From: Bryobacteraceae bacterium
GTDB lineage: Bacteria > Acidobacteriota > Terriglobia > Bryobacterales > Bryobacteraceae
Length of the DNA stretch: 64,000 bases
Reading direction: 5' to 3'
Assembly (NCBI GenBank): GCA_026002855.1
Contig: BPGD01000001.1
Coordinates: 2,674,001-2,738,000 of the forward strand
Under the pieces are notes generated by a model. That model was not told the origin of the DNA, made no database searches, and was given only the letters and a program-made list of their open reading frames with translations. Positions 5,366 to 64,000 of the stretch are shown here, in pieces. Position 1 is the first letter of the stretch, and every line of letters begins with the position of its first letter. A program made the translations under genes and the position numbers.

Positions 5366-5372
5366 GGCCGCC

Positions 5373-7121
5373 TCAGTCGGCGGTGAGAAACCAGTATTCC
5401 CAGTCGCAGGTTGCCAGGCCGGTCTGCTCGCTCACCGGGCGCAGCGTCGCGGCGCCCGGTTGAAGCGGGTATCCGCCGGGCAGGTACGGCACTTCGAAGC
5501 GCGCCGCCGGCACGGCGAAGGCGTGGTCGCCGCCGCGGCCGGCGGGCATCAGCCGCACCGAGCCGTCCGCGCCCGGCGTGATGCGCAGCCGGTTCGTTGT
5601 GAAGGGCTCGTCGAAGAAGAACGGGTCCGTCGCTTCGGCCACGCCGAGCAACCAGGGCCCGTGGAACAGCGCCACGCGCCCCTCCGCGTCGCGCTCGACG
5701 CGCGTCTTCGGGAAATACCGGACGGTAAGAACGTCGCCGGGCTGCCAGACGCGCGCCACGCGGCACCAGCCTTCCCCGGAAGCGATCTCCGCCGCGCCGC
5801 TGTGCGAATGAACTTCGACGCCTGCCGACCACGATGGAATCCGCAGATAAAGCGGCGCCCGCCGCCCGGCCGCCGCGAGGATCCGGACGGTGACGGCGCC
5901 ATCGGTTTCGAGCGTCGAACCCGAGACCAGCCGCAACCCGTCCGTGCGGAGCTCGCCCTCAATGGGCAGATCGAACCAAAGCGCTCCGCCGCTGTCGCGC
6001 CAGGCGTGCCGGAAGATCTCCGGGAACGCCCGCAGCCCGTGCAGCGTGCAGCACCACCAGGCCCGCGCCGAGCCGCCGGCCTGCCCTTCGGTGGCGCCCT
6101 GGCGCACTCCGGTCCTGGCCAGCGGGCGGTGGCCGAAGTCGCCGGTGGAAAACTGGTTCATCGCGAATTCATTGAACAGCGTGCGCTCGGCCGCTTCCAG
6201 ATACCGCAGCCGACCGGTGAGCCGCCAGAGGCGCAGGCTGAGCCGGAGCCAGTCCGCCTCCGCGCATCCTTCCGTTCGGAAGGCCCTGGGTTTCCAGGCC
6301 TCCGGGACGGTGCCGGCGATGAACACGTTGCCGCTTTCCGCCACCTCCTGCCATTCGCGCTCGGCCTGTGCCAGCAGCGCCCGTTCCCGCGTGGCTTCAT
6401 ACAGATCCACAACGCCGCGCAGAGACGTGAGGAACCCGTGAGCGTGCTCGCCGGGGCGGCGTTCGAGGTGCGCCGCGATGTCGAGGGCGGCCCGCCCATA
6501 GGCCTGTTGCCGGGTCGCCGCGGACAACGCGGCCAGCCCCTCGGTCATCTGCGTCCAGCAGATGTAGCCCATGGCGAAGGCGCCTTCGGCGAACTGCTGC
6601 TGGACGCGCGGCGAGTTCATCTGTGGCGCGATTCTGCCGAGAAAATCGCCCAGCCGGCGCGCTGCTTCGAGCGGGCGCGGGTCGCCTGTCAGGCGGTGGC
6701 GTTCGACCAGGCCGACCAGCAGCCGCCCGTTGCCCCACAGCAGCGCCATGTCCTCGCGCCGCAGCTCTCCGGCGGAGAAACCGCCGCCGAAATATCCTTC
6801 CGCCCGCTGGCAGGCAAGCAGCTCCGGCAGCCAGTCGTCGAGCTCCGGGTAGCGCTCGCCGCGATCGGCGGAAGCCGCGGACAGCGCCTCCAGCCAGCGG
6901 CCCGAAACATCGCCGCTGAATTCGGTAAAGCGCCTCACCGGGCGGGGCACCGCATCGGCAAGCACAAGCTCTTTCGTGTACACGGGCGGGCCGCCTTCGC
7001 GGACGCGCCGCAGCGCCAGATCATAACGCCGGGAGAATTGCCCGCTCCGCATCACTGGTGCGGGCGCCCCTGCCAGGGCCGCTGCCGCCGCCGTACCAAG
7101 CCATGTCCTGCGCGTGATCAC
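5373..7121 (-). CDS. Tat-exported GH127-like (DUF1680) glycosidase, beta-L-arabinofuranosidase family
   Basis: A 582-residue (alpha/alpha)6-barrel glycosidase. Two metal and catalytic motifs of GH127 are visible: EGCAEADW (Glu284, Cys286) and WWCCTLHG (Cys357, Cys358). These resemble the Glu/Cys set that binds zinc and supplies the nucleophile in known beta-L-arabinofuranosidases. The C-terminal part is beta-rich (LYLRIPSW, GPWLLG), typical of the family. The N-terminus (MITRRTWLGTAAAAALAGAP) is a twin-arginine signal. The start is GTG at 7121; no strong SD precedes it, but TAACAT lies six bases upstream, so a leaderless message is conceivable. It converges with the GH3 gene. Related families such as GH146 are possible, and the substrate is inferred. 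Confidence 0.78.
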   Translation of the reverse strand: MITRRTWLGTAAAAALAGAPAPVMRSGQFSRRYDLALRRVREGGPPVYTKELVLADAVPRPVRRFTEFSGDVSGRWLEALSAASADRGERYPELDDWLPELLACQRAEGYFGGGFSAGELRREDMALLWGNGRLLVGLVERHRLTGDPRPLEAARRLGDFLGRIAPQMNSPRVQQQFAEGAFAMGYICWTQMTEGLAALSAATRQQAYGRAALDIAAHLERRPGEHAHGFLTSLRGVVDLYEATRERALLAQAEREWQEVAESGNVFIAGTVPEAWKPRAFRTEGCAEADWLRLSLRLWRLTGRLRYLEAAERTLFNEFAMNQFSTGDFGHRPLARTGVRQGATEGQAGGSARAWWCCTLHGLRAFPEIFRHAWRDSGGALWFDLPIEGELRTDGLRLVSGSTLETDGAVTVRILAAAGRRAPLYLRIPSWSAGVEVHSHSGAAEIASGEGWCRVARVWQPGDVLTVRYFPKTRVERDAEGRVALFHGPWLLGVAEATDPFFFDEPFTTNRLRITPGADGSVRLMPAGRGGDHAFAVPAARFEVPYLPGGYPLQPGAATLRPVSEQTGLATCDWEYWFLTAD

Positions 7122-7341: not shown

Positions 7342-9687
7342 CTACTGCCGGATGCCGAACCCCGCCGCTTCCAGGGCGGCGATGATCGCCGCACGCACGG
7401 CCGCCACCTCCTCGCTCGACAGCGTGTGGTCCGGCGCGCCCAGCGTGATGCGGTAGGTGAGGCTCTGCCGGTCCTCGGGCAGCGGCTTGCCCTGATAGGA
7501 ATACAGATACTGCACGCGCTCGCACATCGGGCCGGCGGCGTCGCGGATGCGCGCCGCCAGTTCGGCGCAGTGGACGCGGAGGCCGGCCACCACCGAGAGG
7601 TCGAACTCGCTGGCCGGATAGCGCCGCGGCGGCGTGTATTTCTTCGGCAACGGCCCCAGGGCGAACATCACGTCGAGGTCTACGTCGAGCACCGTGGCCC
7701 GCCCCTGCTCCACCAGCCGCGGATGCAGCTCGAACAGGCGCCCAAGTGTCTTTCCCCGCCAGATGATCTCGCCCGCGCGCGCCGGGTGTTCATACGGGCG
7801 CGCTTCGGCCGGCCGCGTCTCGCAGCCGGGCATCAGGCATTCGGCCAGGCGCTTCAGCTCGAAGAAGGCTTCCCGGCCGTCGCCGCGGCTGTAGATGGCG
7901 GCCGCCAGGTGCGGGACCTCCCGCGGCAGCTCTTTGCCTTCGCGTTTGTGGATCTCGTTGCCGATTTCGAAGAGGCGGAAAGAAGGAAAAAAACGCGAGT
8001 TGTCCAAAATGTTTTTGTGGATGCCCGGCAGCAGGCTCCTGCGCAGCAGGCTCTGCTCCACCGAGATCGGATTGGCCACGCGCAGGTGCTCTTCCGGCGC
8101 GAACCCGAACCGCGCGGCCATCTCCTCGCTGATGAACGAATAGTTGTAGACCTCGATGAAGCCCTGCGCCGCCGCCATCTGACGCACCGCGTGGTGGAAC
8201 AGCCGCTCCTCGTTCACCCACGGCCGCCGCGCCGGCAGCAGCGGGGCCGCGGGCGGCACCGTATCGTAGCCCACCATGCGGCCCACTTCCTCGAGCAGGT
8301 CCTCTTTGATCGAGATGTCTTTGGTGGCGCGCCAGCTCGGCACGCGCACCAGAAACACCCTGGGGCGCGGCTCCTCCACGCCAAAGGAGAGCGATTCGAG
8401 GATGCGCCGCACTTCGTCCTCCCCGATGGGACGGCCGAGCCGCCGCTCGAGCCATTCGATGTCGAGCTCGATCGGCTTCGGTTCCGGGGCGCGCCGCCAG
8501 GAGTCCACCAGCCCGCCCGTCAGCCGGATGCCCGGCGAGACGAGCTGGAAGAGCTCCACGGCGCGGGCCAGCGCCCGCACCGTGTTGGCCGGGTCCTGCG
8601 CCTTTTCGAAGCGCATGGAAGCGTCCGTGCGGATCTTCAGCGCCGCCGAGGTGCGCCGGATGGAGGCGGCGTCGAAGTTCGCGCTTTCGAGAACGATTCT
8701 CCGGGTCGACTCGCGGATGGCCGATCCCGCGCCGCCGATCACGCCGGCCAGCGCCACCGCGCCGCGCCCGTCGGCGATGACCAGGTTCGAGGGCGAAAGG
8801 CGGTAAGTTTCGCCGTTCAGGGCCTCCAGCTCCTCGCCTTCTTCGGCGCGCCGGACGATGATCGTGTTGCCGTGGAGGAGGTCGGCGTCGAAGGCGTGCA
8901 TCGGCTCGGCCAGCTCCGCCATGACGTAGTTGGTGACGTCAACAATATTCGAGATCGGGTTCAGCCCGATCGCTTCCAGCCGCGCCTGCAACCACAGCGG
9001 CGACGGGCCGACGGTGACGTTTTCAAAAACGAGCGCCGAATAGCGCGGGCACAGGTCAAAGTCGCGGATGTCGACGCGCCAGGCGGGCTCGCCGGTCGGG
9101 ATGAGCTCCTCGTGCACCGGGTCGGCCAGCCGCAGCGATGTGATGGCTGCCACCTCGCGCGCCATGCCGACGTGGCCCCACAGGTCCGGCCGGTGCGTCA
9201 GGCTCTTGTTGTCGACCTCGATGATGTGATCCACGGGACAGCCGGGGACGGGCGCGCCCGGCTCGGCTGCCTCCAGTTCCAGAATGCCTGAGCTGTCGCG
9301 GTTCAGACCGAGCTCCGCCCCTGATGCGAGCATCCCCTGGCTTTCGACGCCTTGAATCAAAACCGTGCGGACATGTTTTCCCCCGGCGACGGTGACACCT
9401 GGCGGCACGAAGGCCGTCAGCAGCCCGGGGCGGCAGTTGGGGGCGCCGCAGACCACCGTGCGGCGGCCGTATTCCGGCCCCGCATCGACCACCGCCTTCA
9501 CGTTGTGCGAGCCAGACATCGGCTCGACGCTTTCCACGCGCGCCGCCACCACCGCCTGCATCCACGGGGCGTATGGTTCGACGCCCTCGCATTCGGCGGT
9601 TTTCATCGTAATCAGCCGCGCCAGGTCGCGCGGCGACGCCTCAAGTCCGGGCACAAGCTCGCGAAGCCAGTTATAAGAGAACTTCAC
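7342..9687 (-). CDS. pheT: Phenylalanine-tRNA ligase beta subunit
   Basis: Beta subunit (781 residues) of the alpha2-beta2 enzyme that charges tRNA-Phe. The usual order is visible: a core start MKFSYNWLRELVPGLEAS, an N-terminal tRNA-binding OB domain (about 40-150), the B3/B4 editing domain in the middle, the B5 domain near 400-480, the catalytic-like domain, and a C-terminal anticodon-binding ferredoxin fold (from about RRYPASEFDLSVV to the end). Length is normal. It lies 12 bases downstream of pheS on the minus strand, so the pair is cotranscribed. Nothing unusual was seen. Confidence 0.97.
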   Translation of the reverse strand: MKFSYNWLRELVPGLEASPRDLARLITMKTAECEGVEPYAPWMQAVVAARVESVEPMSGSHNVKAVVDAGPEYGRRTVVCGAPNCRPGLLTAFVPPGVTVAGGKHVRTVLIQGVESQGMLASGAELGLNRDSSGILELEAAEPGAPVPGCPVDHIIEVDNKSLTHRPDLWGHVGMAREVAAITSLRLADPVHEELIPTGEPAWRVDIRDFDLCPRYSALVFENVTVGPSPLWLQARLEAIGLNPISNIVDVTNYVMAELAEPMHAFDADLLHGNTIIVRRAEEGEELEALNGETYRLSPSNLVIADGRGAVALAGVIGGAGSAIRESTRRIVLESANFDAASIRRTSAALKIRTDASMRFEKAQDPANTVRALARAVELFQLVSPGIRLTGGLVDSWRRAPEPKPIELDIEWLERRLGRPIGEDEVRRILESLSFGVEEPRPRVFLVRVPSWRATKDISIKEDLLEEVGRMVGYDTVPPAAPLLPARRPWVNEERLFHHAVRQMAAAQGFIEVYNYSFISEEMAARFGFAPEEHLRVANPISVEQSLLRRSLLPGIHKNILDNSRFFPSFRLFEIGNEIHKREGKELPREVPHLAAAIYSRGDGREAFFELKRLAECLMPGCETRPAEARPYEHPARAGEIIWRGKTLGRLFELHPRLVEQGRATVLDVDLDVMFALGPLPKKYTPPRRYPASEFDLSVVAGLRVHCAELAARIRDAAGPMCERVQYLYSYQGKPLPEDRQSLTYRITLGAPDHTLSSEEVAAVRAAIIAALEAAGFGIRQ

Positions 9688-50177: not shown

Positions 50178-50759
50178 TCAGGGCCGGCCGCTGACGGGCG
50201 GCGTGCCCGGAGTCTGGGCCGGAGTCCTGTTGCCATCGCCCCGCGCGGCCACGGCCACGCCCGCGGCGGCGGCGCCGGCCGCAGCGAGAATGCCGATGAG
50301 TTTCATCGAAACGCCCCCGCCTGCGGCCGCCCCGGCGGCGTTGGAAACCTGCATCTCCGCCGACCCTTTCATGCCGTCCTTGACGGCGGTGATGCGAATG
50401 GTGAAGCGGCCCTGCACGCTGTTGGGGCGCATGCCGCGGACAACGGCGCGGCCCATTTCGTCCGTGGTGAGGGTGATGTTGTTCAGTCCGTTGCTGAAGA
50501 CGACGCTGGCGCCGTCGCGCGGTGCGGTGAGGGTGAGCAGCGCGCCGGCGACAGGCTTGCGGTTTTCATCCTCCACCTGAATGATCGCCTCGCGGGCGAC
50601 GCGCTGCCGGACATTCAAAATCGCCTGGTCGCCCTCGACGATCACGATACGCAGCTCCTCCGGCTGCCGGGCGCCGGGCACCTGTGCCCAGGCGGGCTGG
50701 AGTGCCAGCCACGTTGACAGACCGAGAGCGATGAAGCCACGCAACGGATATCCCCGCAT
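50178..50759 (-). CDS. Exported Ig-like small protein with C-terminal membrane segment, paralogue B
   Basis: A 193-residue protein. It has a signal peptide (FIALGLSTWLALQPAWAQ), a roughly 105-residue beta-rich domain (RIVIVEGDQAILNVRQR, ENRKPVAGALLTLTAP, VVRGMRPNSVQGRF), a Gly/Ala-rich hydrophobic segment (KLIGILAAAGAAAAGVAVAA) and a proline-rich tail. The central domain resembles bacterial Ig-like modules. It is a close paralogue of the protein encoded at 54479-55102; the two core domains are almost collinear and share most residues. It is last in the leftward operon, 124 bases after the He_PIG gene. GGAGG lies ten bases before the ATG. Function unknown. Confidence 0.75.
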   Translation of the reverse strand: MRGYPLRGFIALGLSTWLALQPAWAQVPGARQPEELRIVIVEGDQAILNVRQRVAREAIIQVEDENRKPVAGALLTLTAPRDGASVVFSNGLNNITLTTDEMGRAVVRGMRPNSVQGRFTIRITAVKDGMKGSAEMQVSNAAGAAAGGGVSMKLIGILAAAGAAAAGVAVAARGDGNRTPAQTPGTPPVSGRP

Positions 50760-54478: not shown

Positions 54479-55102
54479 TCACCGCGGCGGGCCCACTGTG
54501 GGCGTGCCGGGCGTGATGGTCGTTGGCGGTGGAGCGGCAGGTCCGCCGCTGGCGCCGCCTCCGCCGTTGCGGGTGGCCGCCACGGTGCCCGCAGCTGCGC
54601 CGGCACCGGCGATGAGCAGAAAAGTGAGCAACTTGGCGCTGATCCCTCCGGCCGCAGCCGCCGCTGCGGCCACATTGGTGACGTTCAGCTGTGCCGAGCC
54701 GCGCAGCCCGTCCTTGACGGCGGTGATCCGGATGGAAAACCTCCCCTGGACGGAATTCGGACGAATGCCGCGGACAACGGCGCGGCCCGAGGAATCCGTC
54801 GCGAGCGTGATGTTGTTCAGGCCGTTGCTGAAAACGGCGCTCGCGCCCTGGCGGGGCGCCGTTAAGGTAATCAGCGCCCCGGCGACGGGCTTGCGGTTTT
54901 CGTCTTCCACCTGAATGATGGCTTCACGGCTGACGCGTTGGCGGACGTTGAAGATCGCTTCGTCGCCTTCGACGATCGTGATGCGCAGGCCGCCCTCGGC
55001 CGGCTGCCAGGCAGCGTGGACGGGCGCGGCAGGCCACACAATCAGGGCAGCGAGGGTGCAGGCAAGGCTCTGTCTGCCGATGGATACCGTGAACTGGGAC
55101 AT
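54479..55102 (-). CDS. Exported Ig-like small protein with C-terminal membrane segment, paralogue A
   Basis: A 207-residue protein with a signal peptide (LACTLAALIVWPAAPVHAA), the same beta-rich domain as paralogue B (RITIVEGDEAIFNVRQR, ENRKPVAGALITLTAP, VVRGIRPNSVQGRF), a hydrophobic segment (KLLTFLLIAGAGAAAGTVAA) and a Gly/Pro-rich tail. The signal peptides and tails differ between the copies, while the core is conserved, so the core is under selection. GGAGG precedes the ATG by six bases. It is first in the leftward operon and 26 bases ahead of the propeller-like gene. Function unknown. Confidence 0.78.
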   Translation of the reverse strand: MSQFTVSIGRQSLACTLAALIVWPAAPVHAAWQPAEGGLRITIVEGDEAIFNVRQRVSREAIIQVEDENRKPVAGALITLTAPRQGASAVFSNGLNNITLATDSSGRAVVRGIRPNSVQGRFSIRITAVKDGLRGSAQLNVTNVAAAAAAAGGISAKLLTFLLIAGAGAAAGTVAATRNGGGGASGGPAAPPPTTITPGTPTVGPPR

Positions 55103-55270: not shown

Positions 55271-56314
55271 ATGGAATATGGGTTGGCAGATTGGCGCGCG
55301 GGCGTAATCGGCCTGGGGGCTCTGGGCAACGAGCTGGTGCGGCAGCTCGGGCTGCTGGGCGTGGGGGAAGTTCTGCTGGTGGATCCGGATCGGGTGGAGG
55401 AGGGCAACCTGGCCAAATGCGCGTTTTTCCGCGTGGCAGGCGCGGTGGGGCGTCCCAAGGCGGAAGTGCTGGCCGAAGCGGGCCGCCAATGGTTTCCGGA
55501 GACGCGCTGGATTGCCCTGGTAGCGGAGATCGCTGATGTGGGCTGGGGGCGGCTGGCCGGGCGGCAGGTTCTATTTGCGGGCGTGGACCGGGAGTCGGCC
55601 CGGCTGGAGATTGCACGGATCAGCACACGGCTGAACATCCCGGTCTGCGATGGCGGGCTGGACACGGGCGGCGCAGGCGGACGGGTGAGCTGGTATCCCG
55701 GCCGTGAAGGGGCCTGCCACGGGTGCCGGCTGACGGCGGCGCGGCGGCGGGAGTGGTTGCAGAGCTGGTCGAGCGCCGCCCACCCGTGCCGGGTTCCGCA
55801 GGAGCCGGGCGGCTGGACGGCGACGCCGCAGCTTGCGGCAGTGACCGCCGCCTTGCAGGCGCACTTCGCGGTGGAGTGGCTCAGGCGCGGCGAGAGCGAG
55901 GCGCGCAGTGTGGAATTCCGCCTGGAGAGGCCGTTGCGGCTGGAAGAGATCCGGTTGGCGGTAAACGAGGCGTGCCCGTTTCACACGGAGGAGCACCGGC
56001 TGCTGGCGCCGATCGCTGGGCTGTTCCGGGATGCGCTGGCCGAGGGCGAGACGGCCTGCTGGGAGTGGCCGGTCTGCCTGAGGGCGCGCTGCCTCGAGTG
56101 CGGGCAAGAATGGCGTCCGCTCCTGCGTGCCGTGAGGTTGCGCCGCGAGGGCGCCTGTCCGAACTGCGGCGGCCGGCGGCTGCTGGAGCTGGAGACGCGC
56201 ACCGGGGTGGCGTGGAACGATTCGCTGGCGGGGCGGAGGCCGGAGGAGCTGGGCTTGCCCCCGGAACACCTGTATAGTATTCGAAAAGGACGGAAACGGG
56301 AGGGATCCGAATGA
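55271..56314 (+). CDS. E1-like ThiF/MoeB-family activating enzyme of a ubiquitin-like system
   Basis: Predicted to adenylate the C-terminal glycine of the ubiquitin-like protein encoded two genes downstream. The 347-residue protein opens directly into a Rossmann domain: GVIGLGALGNELVRQLG (GxGxxG at 14-19), VLLVDPDRVEEGNLAKC (Asp38). CHGC (149-152) and C173 in AHPCRVPQ come before TATPQLAAVTAALQAHF, the position where catalytic-cysteine loops of E1 enzymes lie. The C-terminal third adds CLEC (274-277) and CPNC (296-299), a zinc-ribbon pair unusual for MoeB. ATG at 55271 has AGGAGG 14 bases upstream. Stop overlaps the next ATG. Simple MoeB or ThiF roles are unlikely in this context. Confidence 0.85.
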   Translation: MEYGLADWRAGVIGLGALGNELVRQLGLLGVGEVLLVDPDRVEEGNLAKCAFFRVAGAVGRPKAEVLAEAGRQWFPETRWIALVAEIADVGWGRLAGRQVLFAGVDRESARLEIARISTRLNIPVCDGGLDTGGAGGRVSWYPGREGACHGCRLTAARRREWLQSWSSAAHPCRVPQEPGGWTATPQLAAVTAALQAHFAVEWLRRGESEARSVEFRLERPLRLEEIRLAVNEACPFHTEEHRLLAPIAGLFRDALAEGETACWEWPVCLRARCLECGQEWRPLLRAVRLRREGACPNCGGRRLLELETRTGVAWNDSLAGRRPEELGLPPEHLYSIRKGRKREGSE

Positions 56315-57009
56315 GCGGCCGCTCGGTGACGGTGTTAGCCGCCACGACGTTCCTGTTGTGGCTGGCGCAATTTTTCGCCTGCATGGGCGGGCCGGGAATT
56401 GCGGTGGCCGTGGCGGCGGCCGTCGGCGGGCTGGCGGTGTTTCTCCTGCGGGTCTTCGAGGCGGAACTGCCGAACCCGTGGCTGGCGCTGATTCCATCGG
56501 CTGTCGCTTCCTTGCTGGGAGTGACGGTGTGGAGCCTGGCACAGCCGCGGCTGGACCGGCTCTACTGGCTGGGACCGATGCTGGCGGCGGTGGTGACGGC
56601 AGCCATCATCTGGTGGCAGAACCGCGACGCGCGGCGGTGCGGGCTGTGCAACTGCCGGCTGGCCGGAAAGATTTCGTTCGTCTGTCCGCGCTGCAACCTG
56701 GAGGTTTGCGAGACACGGTGCTGGGATTTTGAAAAGCTCCGCTGCCGGCTGTGCGTGCAGAACGCGGTGCCGCTGTTTCCGCCCAGCCGGCAGTGGTGGG
56801 ACCGCAACGTCGGGCCTGGGGTCACGGCCGGCCGCTGCCAGGTGTGTCAGACGGGCCCGGAGGAGGCCGAGCTCCGGGCCTGCCCGCGCTGCGGCCGGCC
56901 GCAGTGCATTGAGTGCTGGGACGACGCGAACGGCCTGTGCGCCCGCTGCGGCTGGCGGGTGCAGGCCCTGCCGGAATCGCTGAGGAAATTCCTGGTGGAT
57001 GCGCAGTAG
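56311..57009 (+). CDS. Four-helix membrane protein with two all-cysteine RING-like zinc modules (candidate E3)
   Basis: A 232-residue protein, likely the ligase-like partner of the system. Four hydrophobic helices (about 7-25, 28-47, 54-76, 86-102) precede a cysteine-rich tail. Module 1: C110-x2-C113, C125-x2-C128, C133, C137, C145-x2-C148, plus C115. Module 2: C176-x2-C179-x11-C191-x2-C194-x4-C199-x2-C202-x7-C210-x2-C213, a regular four-pair pattern like a cross-brace treble clef with Cys in place of His. With four helices and N-in orientation the tail faces the cytosol. The ATG overlaps the E1 stop (ATGA). E3 activity is inferred from pattern and operon; a plain zinc-ribbon scaffold is the alternative. 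Confidence 0.75.
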   Translation: MSGRSVTVLAATTFLLWLAQFFACMGGPGIAVAVAAAVGGLAVFLLRVFEAELPNPWLALIPSAVASLLGVTVWSLAQPRLDRLYWLGPMLAAVVTAAIIWWQNRDARRCGLCNCRLAGKISFVCPRCNLEVCETRCWDFEKLRCRLCVQNAVPLFPPSRQWWDRNVGPGVTAGRCQVCQTGPEEAELRACPRCGRPQCIECWDDANGLCARCGWRVQALPESLRKFLVDAQ

Positions 57010-57022
57010 GGGGAGGACATTT

Positions 57023-57283
57023 ATGCCCAAGTATCAGATGTATTTCGACACCATCAACGGGGAAACGAAATACAACGTTGACATTGACGAGCACGAAATT
57101 CTCGATGACGTGCTGCACGAAATTCTCTACGACCTGCGGGAGCGCGGCGATGTGCTTCAGGGCGAGGGGGAGCCGCAGGTGGTGTGGAACGGCGTGGCGC
57201 TCGACTTCCGCCGCCCGCTGCCTGAACAGGGCGTGAGGCCGAACGACGTGCTGCGCGTTTCCACGGTAGCCACCAACGGCTGA
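57023..57283 (+). CDS. YukD-like ubiquitin-fold protein ending in glycine
   Basis: An 86-residue protein predicted to be the transferable modifier. Pattern of a beta-grasp fold: strand-turn-strand (YQMYFDTINGETKYNVDID), a helix (ILDDVLHEILYDLRERG), then QVVWNGVALDFRRPL and VRPNDVLRVSTV. The C-terminus is ATNG, with a single exposed glycine and no residues after it, so no protease would be needed to free it. No JAMM-type peptidase gene is in the operon. GGGAGG lies six bases before the ATG. Its stop shares one base with the E2 start (TGATG). Confidence 0.8.
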   Translation: MPKYQMYFDTINGETKYNVDIDEHEILDDVLHEILYDLRERGDVLQGEGEPQVVWNGVALDFRRPLPEQGVRPNDVLRVSTVATNG

Positions 57284-57795
57284 TGCCTCAGGCAGCCTTT
57301 GAGCGGATCCGGGCGCGCCGCATCCGCCATGAATGGGAATGGCTGAAGCGGGCGGCGGCCGCCAATCCCGGCCGGCTCGTGGCGCCCGAGGAGCCGGGCG
57401 GCATCGTGCAACTGCCGGAGACACCCTATTACCGGATGGACGGAACGGAGGGGAGAGGCATCGCGGTGCGCTTTGAATTTCCCGAATATTATCCCTCGGT
57501 CCCGCTGGAAGCCTGGCTCGTTTTTCCGGTGCTGCACCCGAATGTGCATCCGGAAAACGGGTTCGTCTGTCTGTGGGACATGCGTCAGGAAGGGACCTCG
57601 CTGGTGGAGGCGGTGCGCCAGCTCCAGCGCGTGGTCTCCTGGCGGCTGTACAATCTGTCGGCCGACCATCTGATGCAGCCGCAGGCGGGCGTGCGCCCGC
57701 CCCTGCCATACGAGCCGGTGGCGCCGCCGCCCGGCTATGAGCTCGAACGGAGCGCGGGGCTGCCGCCAGGAAAATTCAGAAAGCGATTAAGCTGA
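57283..57795 (+). CDS. E2-like ubiquitin-conjugating enzyme
   Basis: A 170-residue UBC-fold protein, predicted to accept the modifier from the E1 as a thioester. It has FEFPEYYPSVPL (the E2 F-x-FP-x-x-YP element), the HPN motif (85-87, VLHPNVHPENG) and the catalytic cysteine nine residues later (GFVCLW, Cys96), then the alpha-helices of the E2 C-lobe (SLVEAVRQLQRVVSWRLYNL). A proline-rich C-terminal tail (about 138-160) is extra. All key E2 residues are present, including the asparagine often absent in bacterial E2-like proteins. The start overlaps the ubiquitin-fold stop by one base, implying coupled translation. Confidence 0.88.
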   Translation: MPQAAFERIRARRIRHEWEWLKRAAAANPGRLVAPEEPGGIVQLPETPYYRMDGTEGRGIAVRFEFPEYYPSVPLEAWLVFPVLHPNVHPENGFVCLWDMRQEGTSLVEAVRQLQRVVSWRLYNLSADHLMQPQAGVRPPLPYEPVAPPPGYELERSAGLPPGKFRKRLS

Positions 57796-57806: not shown

Positions 57807-59621
57807 ATGTCGAATGCCTCCCGTCAAGCCATCCGCAGCGCGCTGCAACAGGTGATCGGCGACAAGTACGAGGTCCTTGAATGGATCGGCGGCGGCGGCA
57901 TGGCGGAAGTCTTTCTGGCCCGCCACCGCGCGCACGGAGGCCTGTTTGCGGTGAAGGTGCTGGCCGAGGGACTCGCCGACGAGCCGGAGATCGTCGCGCG
58001 GTTCATGGACGAGGCGCGCACCGCGGCGACGCTCGGCGGCCATCCCAACATCGCGCCGGTCTATGACGTGGGCGAGTGGGGCTCGCTGCACTGGCTCATC
58101 ATGCCCTACATCGAGGGCGAGGATCTGAAGAGCTATCTGGAGCGGCACGGGCGGCTGAGTCAGCCCGAAGCGGTATCGATCATCCGGCAGGCGGCCGAGG
58201 CCCTGGCCTGGGCGGGCGAGAGGCGGTTCGTGCACCGCGACCTCAAACCGGCCAACATCCGCATCGACACGAGCGGCCGCGTGATCGTGCTCGATTTCGG
58301 CATTGCCAAGGCGGGCGATGCGCCGAGCGCGCGCACCCGCGCCGGCGAAACGCTCGGCACGCCTTATTACATGTCGCCCGAGCAGATCCGCGCCGAGCCT
58401 TGCGACCACCGCAGCGACCTGTACTCGCTGGGAGTGATCTTTTTTGAGCTGCTCACCGGAATGAAGCCGTTCACCGGGGATAGCTTCCGCGCCATCGAGA
58501 TCGGCCACTGCCAGAAGGCGCCGCCGGCGCTGAGCACGATTGTTCCGGACATCGACCCGGAGATCGAAAGGATCGTCAACAGGCTGCTCGAAAAGGACCG
58601 CGAACGGCGTTACCAGTCCGCGCGCGAGCTGCTCGAGGACCTGCGCCACTCCTACCGGCTGGAGACGGAGGTGCGTCTGCAACCGGTAGTGGACCGGCCG
58701 GATCTGCTGGCCCTGGCGCGCAGCGCAGAGCGGGTGCAGGAACCAGCGCCGGCGCAGGCGGAACCGACGCCTTTCCCGCCGTCGGCTCCGGCGCCCCGGC
58801 CGCGGCCGGGGCGCGCCCCCCTCGTGGCGGGCGCGGCGCTCGTGCTGGTGGCGGCCGTTGCCGCAGGGATTTACTTTGTTTCAAAATCGGGCGATAATGA
58901 GCGGAAAACTGGGAAGGCGGCCGGGAAGACGGAACGTCAGGTTCGAGAGCTGCCCGCCGTGATCCGCGAGGAGGGCGTGACGATGTTCCTCGTCCCGGAG
59001 GGGACGTTCGTCTTCGGCGACAACAGTCCGGAGTCACCGAACCGGCGGCAGGAGATGCGGCTGCCGGCATTTTATATGGACGCCACCGAAGTGAGCAACG
59101 CCCAGTACGCGCGCTTCGTGGAGGCGACCGGGCGTGCGGCGCCGCCCTCGGATGAGTTCCGCAGCGCCCCGTCGCTGCCGGTGACCCACGTGACGCTGGC
59201 CGACGCCCGCGCCTATTGCGCCTGGGCGGGCAAGCGGCTGCCCACTGAACAGGAGTGGGAGAAGGCGGGCCGCGGCACGGACGGCCGCATCTATCCGTGG
59301 GGCAACCAGCCGATGCCGAACCCGGGCACGCTGGTTCCGGTGGACGATTATCCCGAGCGGCAAAGCCCCTACCGGATCCTCGGCCTCGCCGGAAATGTCT
59401 TTGAATGGGTGGACACGCCGTTTCCGGCGACTGAGCGGGAGATCGAGGACCTGCGACGCGCCCTCGGCGGGGCCGATGTGCCGCGCGAGTGGTATTGCAT
59501 CAAGGGCGGGAGCTTCCTGCTCAAGGACGACCGGTTTTTCCGTTTGTATATGCGGAGGGGCTGGCCCGCCAGCCTGCCGCATGCAGCCATTGGATTCCGG
59601 TGCGTGAAAGATGCCCAATAA
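57807..59621 (+). CDS. Membrane Ser/Thr protein kinase fused to a non-catalytic FGE-like domain
   Basis: A 604-residue receptor-like kinase. Kinase domain 20-285: glycine loop IGGGGMAEVF, Lys50, HRDLKPANI (Asp145), DFGIAKAG (Asp163), GTPYYMSPEQ. A Pro-rich linker and a single helix (about 338-358) follow. The C-terminal part (about 390-604) is a formylglycine-generating-enzyme-like fold (VPEGTFVFGDN, GKRLPTEQEWEKAGRG, GLAGNVFEWVDT, IGFRCVK), predicted periplasmic. It lacks the cysteine pair needed by active FGE after the GGSF motif, so it probably binds a ligand instead. Eleven bases separate it from the E2 gene; it overlaps the next gene by 11 bases. Confidence 0.93.
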   Translation: MSNASRQAIRSALQQVIGDKYEVLEWIGGGGMAEVFLARHRAHGGLFAVKVLAEGLADEPEIVARFMDEARTAATLGGHPNIAPVYDVGEWGSLHWLIMPYIEGEDLKSYLERHGRLSQPEAVSIIRQAAEALAWAGERRFVHRDLKPANIRIDTSGRVIVLDFGIAKAGDAPSARTRAGETLGTPYYMSPEQIRAEPCDHRSDLYSLGVIFFELLTGMKPFTGDSFRAIEIGHCQKAPPALSTIVPDIDPEIERIVNRLLEKDRERRYQSARELLEDLRHSYRLETEVRLQPVVDRPDLLALARSAERVQEPAPAQAEPTPFPPSAPAPRPRPGRAPLVAGAALVLVAAVAAGIYFVSKSGDNERKTGKAAGKTERQVRELPAVIREEGVTMFLVPEGTFVFGDNSPESPNRRQEMRLPAFYMDATEVSNAQYARFVEATGRAAPPSDEFRSAPSLPVTHVTLADARAYCAWAGKRLPTEQEWEKAGRGTDGRIYPWGNQPMPNPGTLVPVDDYPERQSPYRILGLAGNVFEWVDTPFPATEREIEDLRRALGGADVPREWYCIKGGSFLLKDDRFFRLYMRRGWPASLPHAAIGFRCVKDAQ

Positions 59622-60543
59622 CATTCCAGTTCGACTGTCCGGACTTCTGCTGGCCGCCCTGGGCGGGTTTGCCGCAGGGACGCAGGAGCCGCTGATCAAC
59701 GCCAGGGACGCGTTTTTTTCCGCCGCTGACATGGTGGCGGTGCAGAAGAAGACGGCCGCGAAGAAATCCGCCAAGACCGCGCCGGCGCGGCGCCCGGAAG
59801 CGGGCCGCGAGCCGGGCAAGGCAGCCGGGCCGAAGCCGGAGCTCGCGGCTGCGCCCCCGCTGGCCAATGCCGAGGCGTATTTCCAGAAAGTATCGCAGAC
59901 GTCACAGAACCTCCCGCCTTTGGGGCTGCGCTACAGCCTGCTGAAGCGGACGCCGCAGGGGCTGGTGGAGGTGAGCGCCGAGACGGAGTTCCACGCCGGC
60001 GACAGCATCCGGCTCAGCGTGATGGGCAACCGGCGCGGGTATCTGTACGTGATCGCAAGGGGCTCGAGCGGCGTGTGGTCGCCGCTGTTCCCGCATCCGG
60101 AGTCGTCGCAGCAGAGCAATGAGATCGTGCCGGGCCGCCTGTATCAGGTTCCTGGCGGCGAGGGCGAGTATTTCACCTTTGACGAGCAGGCGGGCGAGGA
60201 GCGGCTGTTCCTGGTCTTTTCGCTGAAGCCGGTGGAGGACCTGGAAGAGCTGGTGGGCGCGCTCTCGCGCCAGGGGCCGGCCTTGCCGAGGCCTGCTGCG
60301 CGACCGGATACGCCGCCGACGCTATCGGCCGGCCGGTACGACGATGCCTGGATGGAGCAGCTGCGTTCGCGGATCCAGTCGCGCGACCTCGTGTTCACGA
60401 AGATTGACAGGGACAGCGCCACGGCGCCTTCGCCGGTCGGAGGGGGGCCGGAAGCGGCGGTGTACGTGGTGAACGCCTCCACTGTGGGCGGCGGCTCCGG
60501 GGAGGGACGTGTGGTGGCAGAACTGAGGCTCAGGCACCGGTAA
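59611..60543 (+). CDS. Exported DUF4384 protein 1
   Basis: A 310-residue protein with a hydrophobic N-terminus (VRLSGLLLAALGGFAAGTQ) that may act as signal or anchor, a Lys/Ala/Pro-rich linker (about 45-80) and a DUF4384 beta domain (about 100-205) with GDSIRLSVMGNRRGYLYVI and WSPLFPHPES. DUF4384 domains are often found beside caspase-like and kinase genes; their role is unknown. The C-terminus ends VAELRLRHR, similar to the LRLAHR end of the next protein. The ATG lies within the kinase gene end. Confidence 0.85.
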   Translation: MPNNIPVRLSGLLLAALGGFAAGTQEPLINARDAFFSAADMVAVQKKTAAKKSAKTAPARRPEAGREPGKAAGPKPELAAAPPLANAEAYFQKVSQTSQNLPPLGLRYSLLKRTPQGLVEVSAETEFHAGDSIRLSVMGNRRGYLYVIARGSSGVWSPLFPHPESSQQSNEIVPGRLYQVPGGEGEYFTFDEQAGEERLFLVFSLKPVEDLEELVGALSRQGPALPRPAARPDTPPTLSAGRYDDAWMEQLRSRIQSRDLVFTKIDRDSATAPSPVGGGPEAAVYVVNASTVGGGSGEGRVVAELRLRHR

Positions 60544-60566: not shown

Positions 60567-61328
60567 ATGGAGTTCTGCGGCGTATTCCTGGGCTGGATTC
60601 TCGCGGTGGCCGCTGCGGCGGCCCCGCCTACAGGCGGTCTCGTGCGTCCCGGCGACAGAGTAGAGCCGGCGCCGCTGCGCGGCGGGTTGGACGCCCGGCC
60701 CGCACCGGACGGGCCGAAGCGCATCGAGATCATCGTCGAGCGCAACGAGCGCGGCACGGCGCGGCGCGTGGATCCGAACCAGGTTTTTTCGACCGGCGAC
60801 CTGGTGCGCTTCCGCTTCCGCGCCTCATTCAACGGATATCTTTACGTGATGAACCACGGCACCACTGGAAGCTTCACGTTGCTTTTCCCGAAGGAAGAGA
60901 CCGGCACGATGAACCGGATCGAGGCCGGACGGGAGTATCTGGTGCCGATGACCGAGAACGGATGGTTCCGGCTGGAGGGACCGCCGGGCTATGAGATCGT
61001 CTACTGGCTGGTGAGCCCGGTGCGGCTCAGCGACGGCCGGGAAGCGGTGGCAGTGCCGAAGCTGCCCGCGCCGGCGCCGGCGTTGAACCCTTCCATCACG
61101 CCGCGCTGCGACGACACGATTTTCCGCGCCCGGGGCGAATGCCTCGACCACGCCGCCGGGCTGAAAGCGGTGGAAAAAAACGCGGCGCTTCCGGAAAATC
61201 TGGCTCCATTTTCCGGCGCGGCGTCGCGCGAGCTGACGTTTGTGAAGTCGAACCGGAGCGCGGCCGTCAGCGTGGCCGATGACAGCGAGGAGCCGTTCCT
61301 CTACACGCTGCGGCTGGCGCACCGATGA
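60567..61328 (+). CDS. Exported DUF4384 protein 2
   Basis: A 253-residue paralogue-like protein with a signal peptide (MEFCGVFLGWILAVAAAAAP) and a DUF4384 domain (about 50-155): GDLVRFRFRASFNGYLYVMN, GSFTLLFPKEE and AGREYLVPMTENGWFRLEG. A short, less ordered part follows, ending YTLRLAHR. GGAGGAGAG directly precedes the ATG. It lies 23 bases after DUF4384 protein 1. The shared C-terminal ending suggests both are presented or anchored in the same way. Confidence 0.87.
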   Translation: MEFCGVFLGWILAVAAAAAPPTGGLVRPGDRVEPAPLRGGLDARPAPDGPKRIEIIVERNERGTARRVDPNQVFSTGDLVRFRFRASFNGYLYVMNHGTTGSFTLLFPKEETGTMNRIEAGREYLVPMTENGWFRLEGPPGYEIVYWLVSPVRLSDGREAVAVPKLPAPAPALNPSITPRCDDTIFRARGECLDHAAGLKAVEKNAALPENLAPFSGAASRELTFVKSNRSAAVSVADDSEEPFLYTLRLAHR

Positions 61329-61341
61329 GGGAGAGGATGGC

Positions 61342-63438
61342 ATGACGGCCGCCGTATTTCTGCTGGCGCTGCCACTGGCCGCCTGGGCGCAGGCGCCCGC
61401 CGCGCCGCCGGCGGAGCAGCAGCGCGACCTGAAGTTCACGCGCGAGCCCGCGCCCCCGGTGATCAAGCCGGGCGAGAACGTGGTGATCCCGCGCAGCTAC
61501 GCCCTGGTGGTTGGCGTGAGCGAATATCCGAAGCTGCCGCCTCAGGGACAGCTCCGCTTTGCGGCGCGCGACGCGGCGGCCATCTACGCGGCGCTCATCA
61601 GCCCGGAGGGCGGGCAGTTTCCGCCGGAGAACGTCCGCCGGCTGATCGGCCGGGATGCGACGCTGGCCAATGTGCGCGACGCGCTGGAGCGCTGGCTGCC
61701 GTCGGTGGCGAAGGAAGACGACCGGGTGGTGATCTACTTCGCCGGACACGGCTTCGTCGCCGGGGGCAAGGCGTATCTGGCACCCTATGACATCGACCCC
61801 GCCAATATCCCTGGCACGGCGTATCCGATGGAGCGGCTGGGGCGCGTGATCGGCGCCGAGATCCGGGCAAAGTGGAAGGTGCTGCTGACCGACGCCTGCC
61901 ATTCCGGCGCGATCACGCCGGAGTCCGACACGCGGCAGATCAACGCGAGCCTGCTGCAACTGGACCGCTCGCTGTTCTCGCTCACGGCCAGCCGCGATCG
62001 CGAGCAGTCATTTGAAAGCGAGATCTGGGGCGGGGGCCACGGCGTGTTTACCTACTACCTGATCAAGGGCATCGAGGGCGAGGCCGACGAAAACCGCGAC
62101 GGAGTGGTCACCGCCGACGAGCTCGGCGAGTACGTGCGCGTCAACGTGCGCCGCGACACGCAGGCGCGCCAGAACCCGACGGCCGAGCGGGGCAGCTTCG
62201 ATCCCAACATGATCCTCGCCTACAACCCGGCGCGGGCGCCGGCGGCGCCGCTTCAGCCGCCGAAGTTCGGCGCGCTGGTGATCGAGAGCAACATGGACGG
62301 CGTCGAGGTCTTTGTCGACGGACGGAGCCAGGGCGTGGTGAACCGGGGCAAGCCGCTGCGGCTGCCGGGCATTACACCGGGCGTTCATGTCATTCAGGGC
62401 GTGCGGATGGGCTACGAACCGGACGGGCCGCGCGAGGAGACCGTATATCCGGGGCAGGAGACGACGGTGACGCTGCGGATCGTGATTCCGCGCACCCGGA
62501 AACGCTCGGCGGTGGATGCCTTCAACGAAGGCATGGAATATTACCAGAAAGGCTTTGAGAAAAATTATCTGAAAGCTGCGGAATTCTTCCAGAAAGCACT
62601 GAGAGAAGACCCGAAATACAGCCAGGCGGCACTCTATCTGGGCCGTGTTTATCACGCGCTGTATGATCATGAAAAGGCGCGGAAGGCCTTCGAGCTGGCG
62701 ATTTCCATCGACCCCGACTATGCCGAGGCGCAGGCCTCCTTCGGCGGAATGCTGCTCGATGTGGGCGATCTGGACGCCGCCATCCGCCACCTGACGGCGG
62801 CCTGGCAGCGCGACCCGTCGAGCTCGCTCACGCCGGCGCTGCTGGCGCAGGCCTTCACGCGAAAAGGCGCCTACGAGGAGGGAGTGAAGTACGCGCGGGA
62901 GGCGATCCGCCTGAATCCGGGCCACGCCGAGGCGCATTTCTGGCTGGCCGAGGCGATGCGCTTCAGCAAACGCTGCGCCGACGCGATTCCGGAATACCAG
63001 CAGTATCTGCGGCTGAGCGATTTCGATTCAAAGCTGGCGGGCAAGCTGAATTATTACGTGCTGGGCTACCTGGCCGGAGTGGGGCGGAAGAAGCGCGCGG
63101 CGCAGACCGACATCTGGCGCGAGCTCCAATTCATGGCCAATTTCGGCCTGTGCGACTGCGAGCGCGTCAGCCGGCGCTTCGACGCTGCCGCCGGCTGGTG
63201 CCAGCGGGCATTGCGGCTCGACCCCGGGGATCTGTATGCGCACTACGCGCTGGGACTGATTTTCACGGAAAAATTCAACGAATCGTCCTCGGCCGGGTAT
63301 CTTTCGGCGGCGCGCGCCCATTTTGAGAAAGTGATCGAGATCAATCCGGATACCGGCGAGGCCGAGCGGAGCAGGGCCTATCTGGCGCGGATCCAGCAGG
63401 TGGTGTCGCGGCTCAGCGCGCCGGGGGCCTCCCCTTGA
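61342..63438 (+). CDS. Exported caspase-like (C14) protein with PEGA and TPR domains
   Basis: A 698-residue protein. Signal peptide MTAAVFLLALPLAAWAQA, then a caspase-like domain (about 50-300) with the dyad His136 (YFAGHGF) and Cys186 (TDACHSG). An EF-hand-like loop (ADENRDGVVTADEL) lies near residue 255 and could bind calcium. A PEGA domain (about 313-395) and TPR repeats (about 405-690) make up the rest. The dyad is complete, so it may be an active protease in the periplasm. GGGAGAGG precedes the ATG; an in-frame start at 61279 lies inside the preceding gene and was rejected. Gap to the preceding gene is 13 bases. Confidence 0.93.
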   Translation: MTAAVFLLALPLAAWAQAPAAPPAEQQRDLKFTREPAPPVIKPGENVVIPRSYALVVGVSEYPKLPPQGQLRFAARDAAAIYAALISPEGGQFPPENVRRLIGRDATLANVRDALERWLPSVAKEDDRVVIYFAGHGFVAGGKAYLAPYDIDPANIPGTAYPMERLGRVIGAEIRAKWKVLLTDACHSGAITPESDTRQINASLLQLDRSLFSLTASRDREQSFESEIWGGGHGVFTYYLIKGIEGEADENRDGVVTADELGEYVRVNVRRDTQARQNPTAERGSFDPNMILAYNPARAPAAPLQPPKFGALVIESNMDGVEVFVDGRSQGVVNRGKPLRLPGITPGVHVIQGVRMGYEPDGPREETVYPGQETTVTLRIVIPRTRKRSAVDAFNEGMEYYQKGFEKNYLKAAEFFQKALREDPKYSQAALYLGRVYHALYDHEKARKAFELAISIDPDYAEAQASFGGMLLDVGDLDAAIRHLTAAWQRDPSSSLTPALLAQAFTRKGAYEEGVKYAREAIRLNPGHAEAHFWLAEAMRFSKRCADAIPEYQQYLRLSDFDSKLAGKLNYYVLGYLAGVGRKKRAAQTDIWRELQFMANFGLCDCERVSRRFDAAAGWCQRALRLDPGDLYAHYALGLIFTEKFNESSSAGYLSAARAHFEKVIEINPDTGEAERSRAYLARIQQVVSRLSAPGASP

Positions 63439-63478
63439 CTCCGGCGGAGGGGGTGATGCAATAAAAGTGCACTTGGAA

Positions 63479-63484
63479 TACAAT
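63479..63484 (+). promoter_or_regulatory. Candidate internal -10 element before the last gene
   Basis: TACAAT matches TATAAT in five of six positions, 32 bases before the ATG at 63517. No clear -35 was seen at normal spacing. The preceding 78-bp gap is the largest within the operon, so a secondary promoter is possible. Confidence 0.3.
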
Positions 63485-63516
63485 CGCGTCAATGGCCTCG
63501 AGGAGGAGCGGCAAGG

Positions 63517-64000
63517 ATGAGCCTCTACCAGACGTTGTACTTCATGTCGCTGGCCGGAGGCTTCGCTGGTCTGTTGAGCTGGGCGCTGACGGCGCTGCTG
63601 TCGGCGACGATCCTTTCCAACCGCCCGGCGCTGGCGGACCTGACGGCGGCGGCGCTGCTGGGGTTGATCATCGGCCTGCTTACGGTCGCCTTCTCTGACA
63701 AGTGGTCGGGCAACCGCGTGGTTGGCCGCTACGTGCTGGCGGGCGGGGCCATCGGCCTGGTGGCGGGGCTGCTGGGCGGACTGGCGATGATCCCCATCAC
63801 CGAGAACCTGGGCCCGCAGATGCCGTTCCTGGCGCGGTTGCTGAGCTGGATGCTGGTGGGCAGCCTGATCGGACTGGGACTGGGGCTGCGGTGGGTGATG
63901 GCGAACAAGATGCGGGTGGTGCACGCCTGTCTGGGCGGGCTGATAGGAGGTGCGGTGGGCGGCTCGCTGTTCCACGTTCTCGGCAGCCGGATCCCGGACC
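63517..64000 (+). CDS. Polytopic membrane protein, N-terminal part (3' end outside window)
   Basis: The frame is open from ATG 63517 to the window end (161 codons). It starts MSLYQTLYFMSLAGGFAGL and contains about five hydrophobic, Gly/Leu-rich helices (for example LLGLIIGLLTVAF, LAGGAIGLVAGLLGGLAMI, VGSLIGLGLGLRW). The SD is AGGAGGAG. I do not recognise a family from this part. Acidobacterial proteins with a start like this sometimes continue into an FHA phosphothreonine-binding domain, which would fit the upstream kinase; that can only be judged from sequence beyond the window. Confidence 0.75.
   Translation, partial: MSLYQTLYFMSLAGGFAGLLSWALTALLSATILSNRPALADLTAAALLGLIIGLLTVAFSDKWSGNRVVGRYVLAGGAIGLVAGLLGGLAMIPITENLGPQMPFLARLLSWMLVGSLIGLGLGLRWVMANKMRVVHACLGGLIGGAVGGSLFHVLGSRIPD

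Follow-up and report, generated by a model that had tools for sequence, protein, structure and literature searches.

A Ubiquitin-Like Conjugation Cassette Linked to a Type VI Secretion-Like Gene Cluster in Acidobacteriota

A stretch of 64,000 nucleotides from a Bryobacteraceae bacterium (assembly GCA_026002855.1, contig BPGD01000001.1, positions 2,674,001 to 2,738,000 of the forward strand), hereafter called the window, contains at positions 55271 to 57795 four adjacent genes that encode an E1, a membrane protein with a RING-like module, a ubiquitin-like protein (Ubl), and an E2. The cassette is probably a complete and self-sufficient pathway for Ubl conjugation, serving the contractile injection system, similar to a type VI secretion system (T6SS), whose genes follow it. 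The window genome (G000) is a single contig of 4.44 Mb; its named close relatives are metagenome-assembled genomes of the Bryobacteraceae and Bryobacterales, and its lineage lies within the Acidobacteriota.

The four-gene cassette had been proposed in a first-pass annotation made from the letters of the window, and the coordinates and junctions given there are exact. The E1 and membrane-protein genes overlap by 4 bases (ATGA), a gap of 13 bases separates the membrane-protein gene from that of the Ubl, and the Ubl and E2 genes overlap by 1 base (TGATG). The features of the cassette are as follows.

55271–56314, + strand: E1, ThiF-type adenylating enzyme, 347 residues (Pfam PF00899, PDB profile matches, invariant residues)
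55787–55789, + strand: Cys173 codon of the E1, candidate for the thioester cysteine (Cys in 21 of 21 cassettes)
56311–57009, + strand: putative membrane RING E3 of 232 residues, with four helices and two Cys-rich zinc modules (AlphaFold2 model, Prok-RING_2)
56836–56949, + strand: second zinc module, RING-like, residues 176–213 (Prok-RING_2 match at residues 176–214)
57023–57283, + strand: Ubl, 86-residue ubiquitin-fold modifier with an Asn-Gly-stop end
57283–57795, + strand: E2, 170 residues, with HPN at 85–87 and Cys96 (UQ_con, UBE2K profile match, invariant Cys)
57568–57570, + strand: codon of E2 Cys96 (sequence reading and UBE2K alignment)

Proteins of the Cassette

The assignment of the first gene product as a ThiF-type E1 is borne out by its match to the Pfam ThiF family (3.1e-19, 69.5 bits against a cut-off of 28.1). 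Across 21 cassettes, that of the window and those of 20 other loci, residues G14, G16, L18, G19, D38, N46, K63, D106, and C173 are invariant, and the invariant set also includes a CxxC and CPxH pair and a C-terminal CxxC...CxxC ribbon. When a profile built from eight E1 sequences is compared with the PDB, the best match is the NEDD8 E1 subunit (8e-16), followed by Citrobacter BubCD (5e-15) and other E1s; the same profile matches Cap2 (1.2e-7), and UBA7 and the SUMO E1s are among the best rows. The protein is an adenylating E1 with a conserved cysteine, as a conjugation cascade requires, and Cys173 is presumably its thioester site.

The E2 matches the Pfam family UQ_con at 1.7e-5, with 24.9 bits against a cut-off of 27. 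Among E2s of known structure, the family profile is closest to UBE2K (3.7e-5), and Cys96 aligns with the cysteine of the UBE2K GxICL motif, which we take to be the active site of that enzyme. The HPN motif and Cys96, from which the gene had originally been recognized, both align with eukaryotic E2s, placing Cys96 at the E2 active-site position; Cys96, His85, and Asn87 are invariant in 21 of 21 cassettes. Searches with a single E2 sequence reached near relatives alone (6 of 61 genomes, and 2 loci among genome contigs).

The AlphaFold model of the membrane protein (predicted local distance difference test, pLDDT, 90.3) has long helices at residues 3–25, 28–48, 56–77, and 83–105, which precede the zinc modules. 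The protein matches Prok-RING_2 at 1.8e-4, and at E ≤ 0.1 Prok-RING_2 is matched by 12 of 20 family members and Prok-RING_1 by 11 of 20. For module 2 there are weak alignments with RING E3s, and the one with RLIM places the invariant W203 on a tryptophan of RLIM. The transmembrane protein with two Cys-rich modules that had been predicted is thus seen as four helices and two zinc modules, the second of which is RING-like, with a weak RING score.

The Pfam RING model PF14445 was tried as a detector of the cassette. It matched 11 of 396 genomes of the phylum, with a cassette in two of them (the window genome and G199); BLAST found no window-like E1, Ubl, or E2 at the remaining nine loci, and those of the nine that are listed resemble, on inspection by eye, zinc-finger or zinc-ribbon proteins of other kinds. 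The model is unusable for this purpose because G109, G121, and G163 carry the cassette without a match to it.

The product of the third gene has no match to a Pfam family, and a profile of the Ubl family found nothing below E 0.38 among PDB sequences, so that its fold is settled by the structural model. The model (pLDDT 90.6) is a β-grasp resembling the EccD-type Ubl domains of ESX-5, ubiquitin, and SUMO. In Foldseek the top five rows are chains of the ESX-5 type VII complex, with the EccD5 Ubl domain (7b7j) eighth, whereas in VIA-align an ESX-5 chain at 10.2 is tied with SUMO and ubiquitin at 10.2–10.9. YukD is absent from the four Pfam families listed for 20 Ubl members at E ≤ 1. The earlier description of an 86-residue β-grasp protein ending in glycine therefore holds, the fold by the model and the end by comparison: Asn-Gly stands just before the stop codon in 20 of 20 free Ubls. 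The cassette is not a product of chance, because Cys96, His85, and Asn87 of the E2 and Cys173 of the E1 are invariant in the 21 cassettes and all 20 free Ubls end in Asn-Gly.

Of the four proteins, the Ubl is the best conserved. Identity to the window copy is 67–100% over the 20 free Ubls; in the same 20 cassettes identity of the RING-like protein falls to 32%, and among eight cassettes that of the E1 falls to 32% and that of the E2 to 34%. Between the window and locus L007 all 86 Ubl residues are identical, with a proportion of differing nonsynonymous sites (pN) of 0.000 and of synonymous sites (pS) of 0.335, so that a third of the synonymous sites differ; for the same pair, pN is 0.155 for the E1, 0.075 for the RING-like protein, and 0.087 for the E2. 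At the level of sequence, this is the conservation pattern of ubiquitin itself. The Ubl gave no match in plasmids, and none of 95 pattern matches in viral contigs was confirmed.

Maturation of the Ubiquitin-Fold Protein

Two cassettes depart from the arrangement just described. In L068 (genome G486, 8155–8994) and L099 (genome G301, 5337–6206) the Ubl and E2 are fused in one open frame, and the Asn-Gly end is absent. A JAMM gene adjoins the cassette in exactly these two loci; the protein of L068 matches Prok-JAB with 51.6 bits, and the JAMM motif is present in both. Around the 20 free-Ubl cassettes, the stretches retrieved were scanned for the motif and with a profile of the two JAMM proteins, which together yielded a single weak match (0.0087, L007 173–658), more than 7 kb from the E1. 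No JAMM gene was found near the window cassette, and the sole Prok-JAB match of the genome lies about 1.87 Mb away. The JAMM deubiquitinase within the operon that characterizes Bil/Bub systems is thus missing from the free-Ubl cassettes.

It had been suggested that the modifier needs no maturation. The comparison supports this reading, because free Ubls end in Asn-Gly without a JAMM gene while both Ubl–E2 fusions adjoin one. The pattern fits the notion that a free glycine end would remove the need for processing.

Distribution and Gene Order

The Ubl profile detects 20 of 399 genomes of the class, and with G301, which lies outside the class, the total is 22 cassettes in 21 genomes. All belong to Acidobacteriota and all keep the order E1–RING–Ubl–E2; profiles of these four proteins and of an FHA-family membrane protein match 22 of 22 cassettes. 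A VWA gene likewise adjoins all 22, lying on the following stretch in the case of the window and on the next contig in G486. In L064 (11004–12477) two extra open reading frames, of 187 and 311 residues, stand between the E1 and RING genes. In relatives of the f8 family the cassette is divergent from the FHA–VWA row, and the gene after E2 encodes a kinase or a metallophosphatase (identified by Pfam in L060 and by eye in L065–L067).

Genetic Linkage to a Type VI Secretion-Like Cluster

The cassette stands at the start of a cluster of T6SS-like genes. Beyond the window are the rest of the FHA-family gene, VWA, TssB, TssC, two Hcp genes, TssE-like and TssF-like genes, TssG, VgrG, TssK, and a ClpB/ClpV-type ATPase, with TssB and TssC beginning about 2 kb past the window end. 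Pfam bit scores (cut-offs in parentheses) are 26.3 (24) for TssB, 102.1 (25) for TssC, 38.8 (24.6) for TssG, 31.6 (23.4) for TssK, and 73.8 (23.8) for the VgrG OB domain; a TssB/TssC sheath together with TssG, TssK, and VgrG, the set by which a T6SS is recognized, is therefore present in one cluster. Hcp, TssE, and TssF were recognized solely through homology to genes of relatives named by eye. After the ClpB/ClpV-type gene, L090 56–6921 (about 83–90 kb in window coordinates) holds an FHA-like open reading frame and repeated VgrG/spike-like modules with paired proteins, as judged by eye. Searches for TssL (DotU) and TssM (IcmF-related) gave no match in the one-contig window genome and were positive for both in an E. 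coli control. A canonical T6SS is not claimed, because the DotU and IcmF matches are missing from the window genome.

The two gene sets are closely coupled. A TssC profile finds 19 of 399 class genomes, and all 19 are among the 20 that carry the Ubl; the two draws of 399 genomes are taken to be the same genomes, and the listed rows agree. In draws from the phylum, the Ubl is found in 7 of 347 genomes and TssC in 7 of 347, with six common to both. Counted by genus, the class draws give 9 of 136 for the Ubl and 8 of 136 for TssC. The distance from Ubl to TssC is 4.8–9.3 kb in 18 of 18 pairs on the same contig; the two lie on separate contigs in G486 and G708. In G486 the cassette contig ends within the FHA-family gene, and the TssC contig starts within a VWA gene. 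Genome G668 has two complete cassettes (L059 and L060), and a separate TssC gene accompanies each; E2 is followed by a kinase gene in one of them and by a metallophosphatase gene in the other. The E1, RING-like protein, Ubl, E2, and TssC of copy a are all nearest to those of G735, and all five of copy b are nearest to those of G604. A Fisher test leaves relatedness out of account and is not read as a probability, and distance correlations (r 0.76–0.90 for 19 cassettes, with G486 set aside) are likewise confounded by relatedness.

Between the cassette and the end of the window lie five further genes on the same strand.

57807–59621, + strand: Ser/Thr kinase, 11 bases after E2, with an FGE-sulfatase domain at its C-terminus and, by eye, a hydrophobic segment (Pkinase 3.1e-46, FGE-sulfatase 1.6e-40)
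59611–60543, + strand: DUF4384 protein (DUF4384 3.9e-11; homologue in 7 of 7 other cassette-bearing f1 genomes)
60567–61328, + strand: second DUF4384 protein, probably exported (by eye; DUF4384 1e-12; f1 homologues)
61342–63438, + strand: caspase-like peptidase with TPRs, probably exported (Peptidase_C14 4.9e-14, TPRs; f1 homologues)
63517–64000, + strand: 5' part of a gene for an FHA-bearing family A8 membrane protein, extending to about 64461 beyond the window (A8 profile)

From E2 through to the FHA-family gene the same-strand gaps are at most 78 bases, and all 8 f1 cassettes have the kinase–FGE, the two DUF4384, and the caspase–TPR genes in this interval. The A8 profile matches window positions 63457–63999 at 4.7e-49; against the complete gene, in L089, the value is 4.1e-128. 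The homologue in L060 matches FHA with 22.3 bits (cut-off 20.7); the window copy itself has no Pfam match. A PP2C gene lies near the cassette in G486 and, by eye, in G301. The start of the caspase-like gene at 61342 was chosen by eye at a methionine like that of a signal peptide, the first start of the open reading frame being 61279. This protein was considered as a deconjugase and dropped, since it looks exported by eye.

On the other strand, positions 50178–50759 and 54479–55102 encode small proteins that by eye are much alike in their central sequence. The latter gene is divergent from E1 and upstream of it, with a homologue in that position in seven other f1 loci; its product has weak carboxypeptidase-regulatory and Big_1-like matches below the cut-off.

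Proposed Mechanism

The organization of the cassette suggests a simple cascade, whose chemistry, site at the membrane, and substrate we infer. With ATP, the E1 would adenylate Gly86 of an already mature Ubl and take the Ubl onto Cys173, from which it would pass to Cys96 of the E2. At the inner membrane, the four-helix RING-like protein could then recruit the charged E2 and steer the Ubl onto a lysine of a local substrate. Gene linkage points to a substrate that is most likely part of the injection machine or carried by it. The likeliest candidate would be a component, regulator, or cargo, controlled by the linked kinase and by the FHA-family membrane protein. Phospho-control, which is known for T6SS, is suggested by these two proteins and, in G486 and G301, by the PP2C.

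A more specific proposal concerns the missing TssL and TssM. It is possible, though somewhat doubtful, that the cluster represents a T6SS subtype without these proteins, in which a membrane-anchored Ubl cascade controls assembly, firing, or cargo, and the RING-like and FHA-family proteins partly replace the missing membrane complex.

Several observations weigh against a pathway that serves the injection system. The pathway is predicted here from genes and models. The RING-like assignment depends on low scores: the Prok-RING_2 match, at 22.1 bits, falls just below the cut-off of 22.4, and the PDB RING matches are weak (E 0.006–0.06) and rank below the top row, aS34, which aligns with module 1 (0.0033). 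When the model of the membrane protein is compared by VIA-align, helices fill the rows, and the sole RING/FYVE-type rows noticed are FYVE, at module 1; the zinc modules are barely probed by this comparison because the helices dominate. The T6SS-like proteins score below the cut-offs of their NCBIfam rows, TssC has no such row, and the ATPase scores higher with ClpB (944) than with TssH (740), both below cut-off. The six TssC sequences behind the profile are all cassette-linked, so that it probes one TssC clade and not every T6SS. Nor is the link between cassette and T6SS absolute, since two of the 21 Ubl-bearing genomes, the fragmented drafts G049 and G301, retain the FHA-family and VWA genes and give no TssC match. 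The G049 contig ends just past the VWA gene; beside the cassette of G301 no T6SS gene was noticed. Conversely, one T6SS of the phylum lacks the cassette: the 16 kb around a weak TssC match in G260 gave no E1, E2, or Ubl match and one marginal RING match (0.00033), on the opposite strand. Coupling is thus less than complete.

Alternative Explanations

The two cassettes without a TssC match, together with the affinity of the E1 profile for BubCD and Cap2, are what might be expected if the Ubl pathway had a job of its own, such as anti-phage defence like that of Bil/Bub systems, and merely lay beside T6SS genes. We regard this as unlikely. Every TssC-bearing genome among the 399 carries the Ubl, and each cassette copy of G668 travels with its own TssC. 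Moreover, no PADLOC family matches the RING-like protein, Ubl, or E2 at E ≤ 1, and the listed PADLOC matches of the E1 cover its N-terminal domain, one of them extending to residue 236. It is less probable still that the Ubl acts without covalent attachment, as a structural adaptor for the secretion machine in the manner of YukD or EccD, with the E1 and E2 doing something else. The ESX-5 chains at the head of the Foldseek rows, EccD5 in eighth place, and the linkage of the Ubl gene to a secretion apparatus would suit such a role, but neither the C-terminal Asn-Gly nor either catalytic cysteine varies, JAMM is present exactly where fusion masks the glycine end, and the preference for ESX-5 disappears in the VIA-align tie with SUMO and ubiquitin.

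Two further possibilities concern the fate of the activated Ubl. Attachment to a membrane lipid, as for Atg8, in place of a protein is very unlikely. The least probable of these proposals is a sulfur-carrier system of the ThiS/MoaD style acting on a cofactor or metabolite: the E1 is of the ThiF type, and its best NCBIfam row is adenyl_thiF, although far below the cut-off of that family; yet an E2 and a RING-like protein accompany every cassette, the Ubl terminates in NG and not GG, and the best PDB rows for the E1 are the NEDD8, BubCD, UBA7, and SUMO E1s. A protein-conjugation pathway serving the injection system remains the preferred reading.

Relation to Known Systems

The first-pass annotation had singled out the membrane RING as a distinguishing trait. 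The membrane RING-like protein is indeed present, but its distinctiveness must be tempered, since related acidobacterial operons have been published and Pfam contains Prok-RING families. These families match the present RING family weakly, and we take their Pfam description to mention bacterial versions with transmembrane helices.

In PMC4197634, which cites Burroughs 2011, operons related to an archaeal E1–E2–RING–Ub cluster are attributed to Actinobacteria, Planctomycetes, and Acidobacteria. The cassette is accordingly of a known kind, because E1–E2–RING–Ub operons in Acidobacteria had already appeared in that account. The operons of Burroughs, Iyer and Aravind (2011), as seen through this citing paper, combine the same four functional parts in one operon, and Acidobacteria are named among their carriers. 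They differ in two respects: the same portion of PMC4197634 relates the bacterial operons to an archaeal five-gene cluster with an Rpn11-type deubiquitinase, whereas 20 of the 22 cassettes have no nearby JAMM, and nearly all the present cassettes are linked to a T6SS. The ubiquitin operon of Caldiarchaeum subterraneum, for which the accessible part of PMC5654768 reports demonstrated conjugation, also contains an E1, an E2, a RING-type protein, and a Ubl. There, the pro-ubiquitin is cut by Rpn11/JAMM to a di-glycine and the RING protein is small, whereas the window cassette has a free Ubl with an NG end, a membrane-anchored RING-like protein, and no adjoining JAMM. Earlier bacterial operons with Ubl, E1, and E2, several of them with JAB, are listed in the portion of PMC1779556 that we could consult.

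The cassette also shares features with systems of different composition. Characterized Bil/Bub systems act against phages, have a JAMM protein, and are not known to have a RING. Like them, the cassette encodes E1, E2, and Ubl in one operon, and its E1 profile matches BubCD; unlike them, it has a RING-like protein, no JAMM, and a T6SS link. The YukD and EccD proteins of type VII secretion resemble the Ubl in fold, by the top Foldseek rows, and in being tied to a secretion machine. The 20 Ubl members differ in having no YukD Pfam match, and the type VII systems are not known to have an E1 or E2. TssB, TssC, TssG, TssK, VgrG, a ClpB/ClpV-type ATPase, Hcp, an FHA-family protein, and a kinase or PP2C nearby recall T6SSs with kinase–FHA control, from which the cluster is set apart by its built-in Ubl pathway and by the lack of a TssL or TssM match in the genome.

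Among the literature matches listed, from a coverage in which most subscription papers are absent, no title or start of an abstract linked a T6SS with a bacterial E1–E2–RING–Ubl set, and the parts available of PMC11354881, PMC3482391, and PMC9230969 contain nothing on such a link. Within the reach of these searches, and with the full 2011 account of Burroughs and colleagues outside the comparison, the coupling to a T6SS and the contrast between fusion and JAMM are new.

The contrast between free-Gly Ubls without JAMM and Ubl–E2 fusions with JAMM is a natural one that makes the question of maturation directly testable, and the cassette offers a minimal E1–E2–RING–Ubl set without a processing enzyme. 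Bacterial Ubl conjugation is so far known mostly in connection with defence against phages. A cascade that is co-inherited with a contractile injection system would represent a different role and would give the search for its substrate a defined place. Bacteria may thus use a ubiquitin-like tag to control an injection machine.

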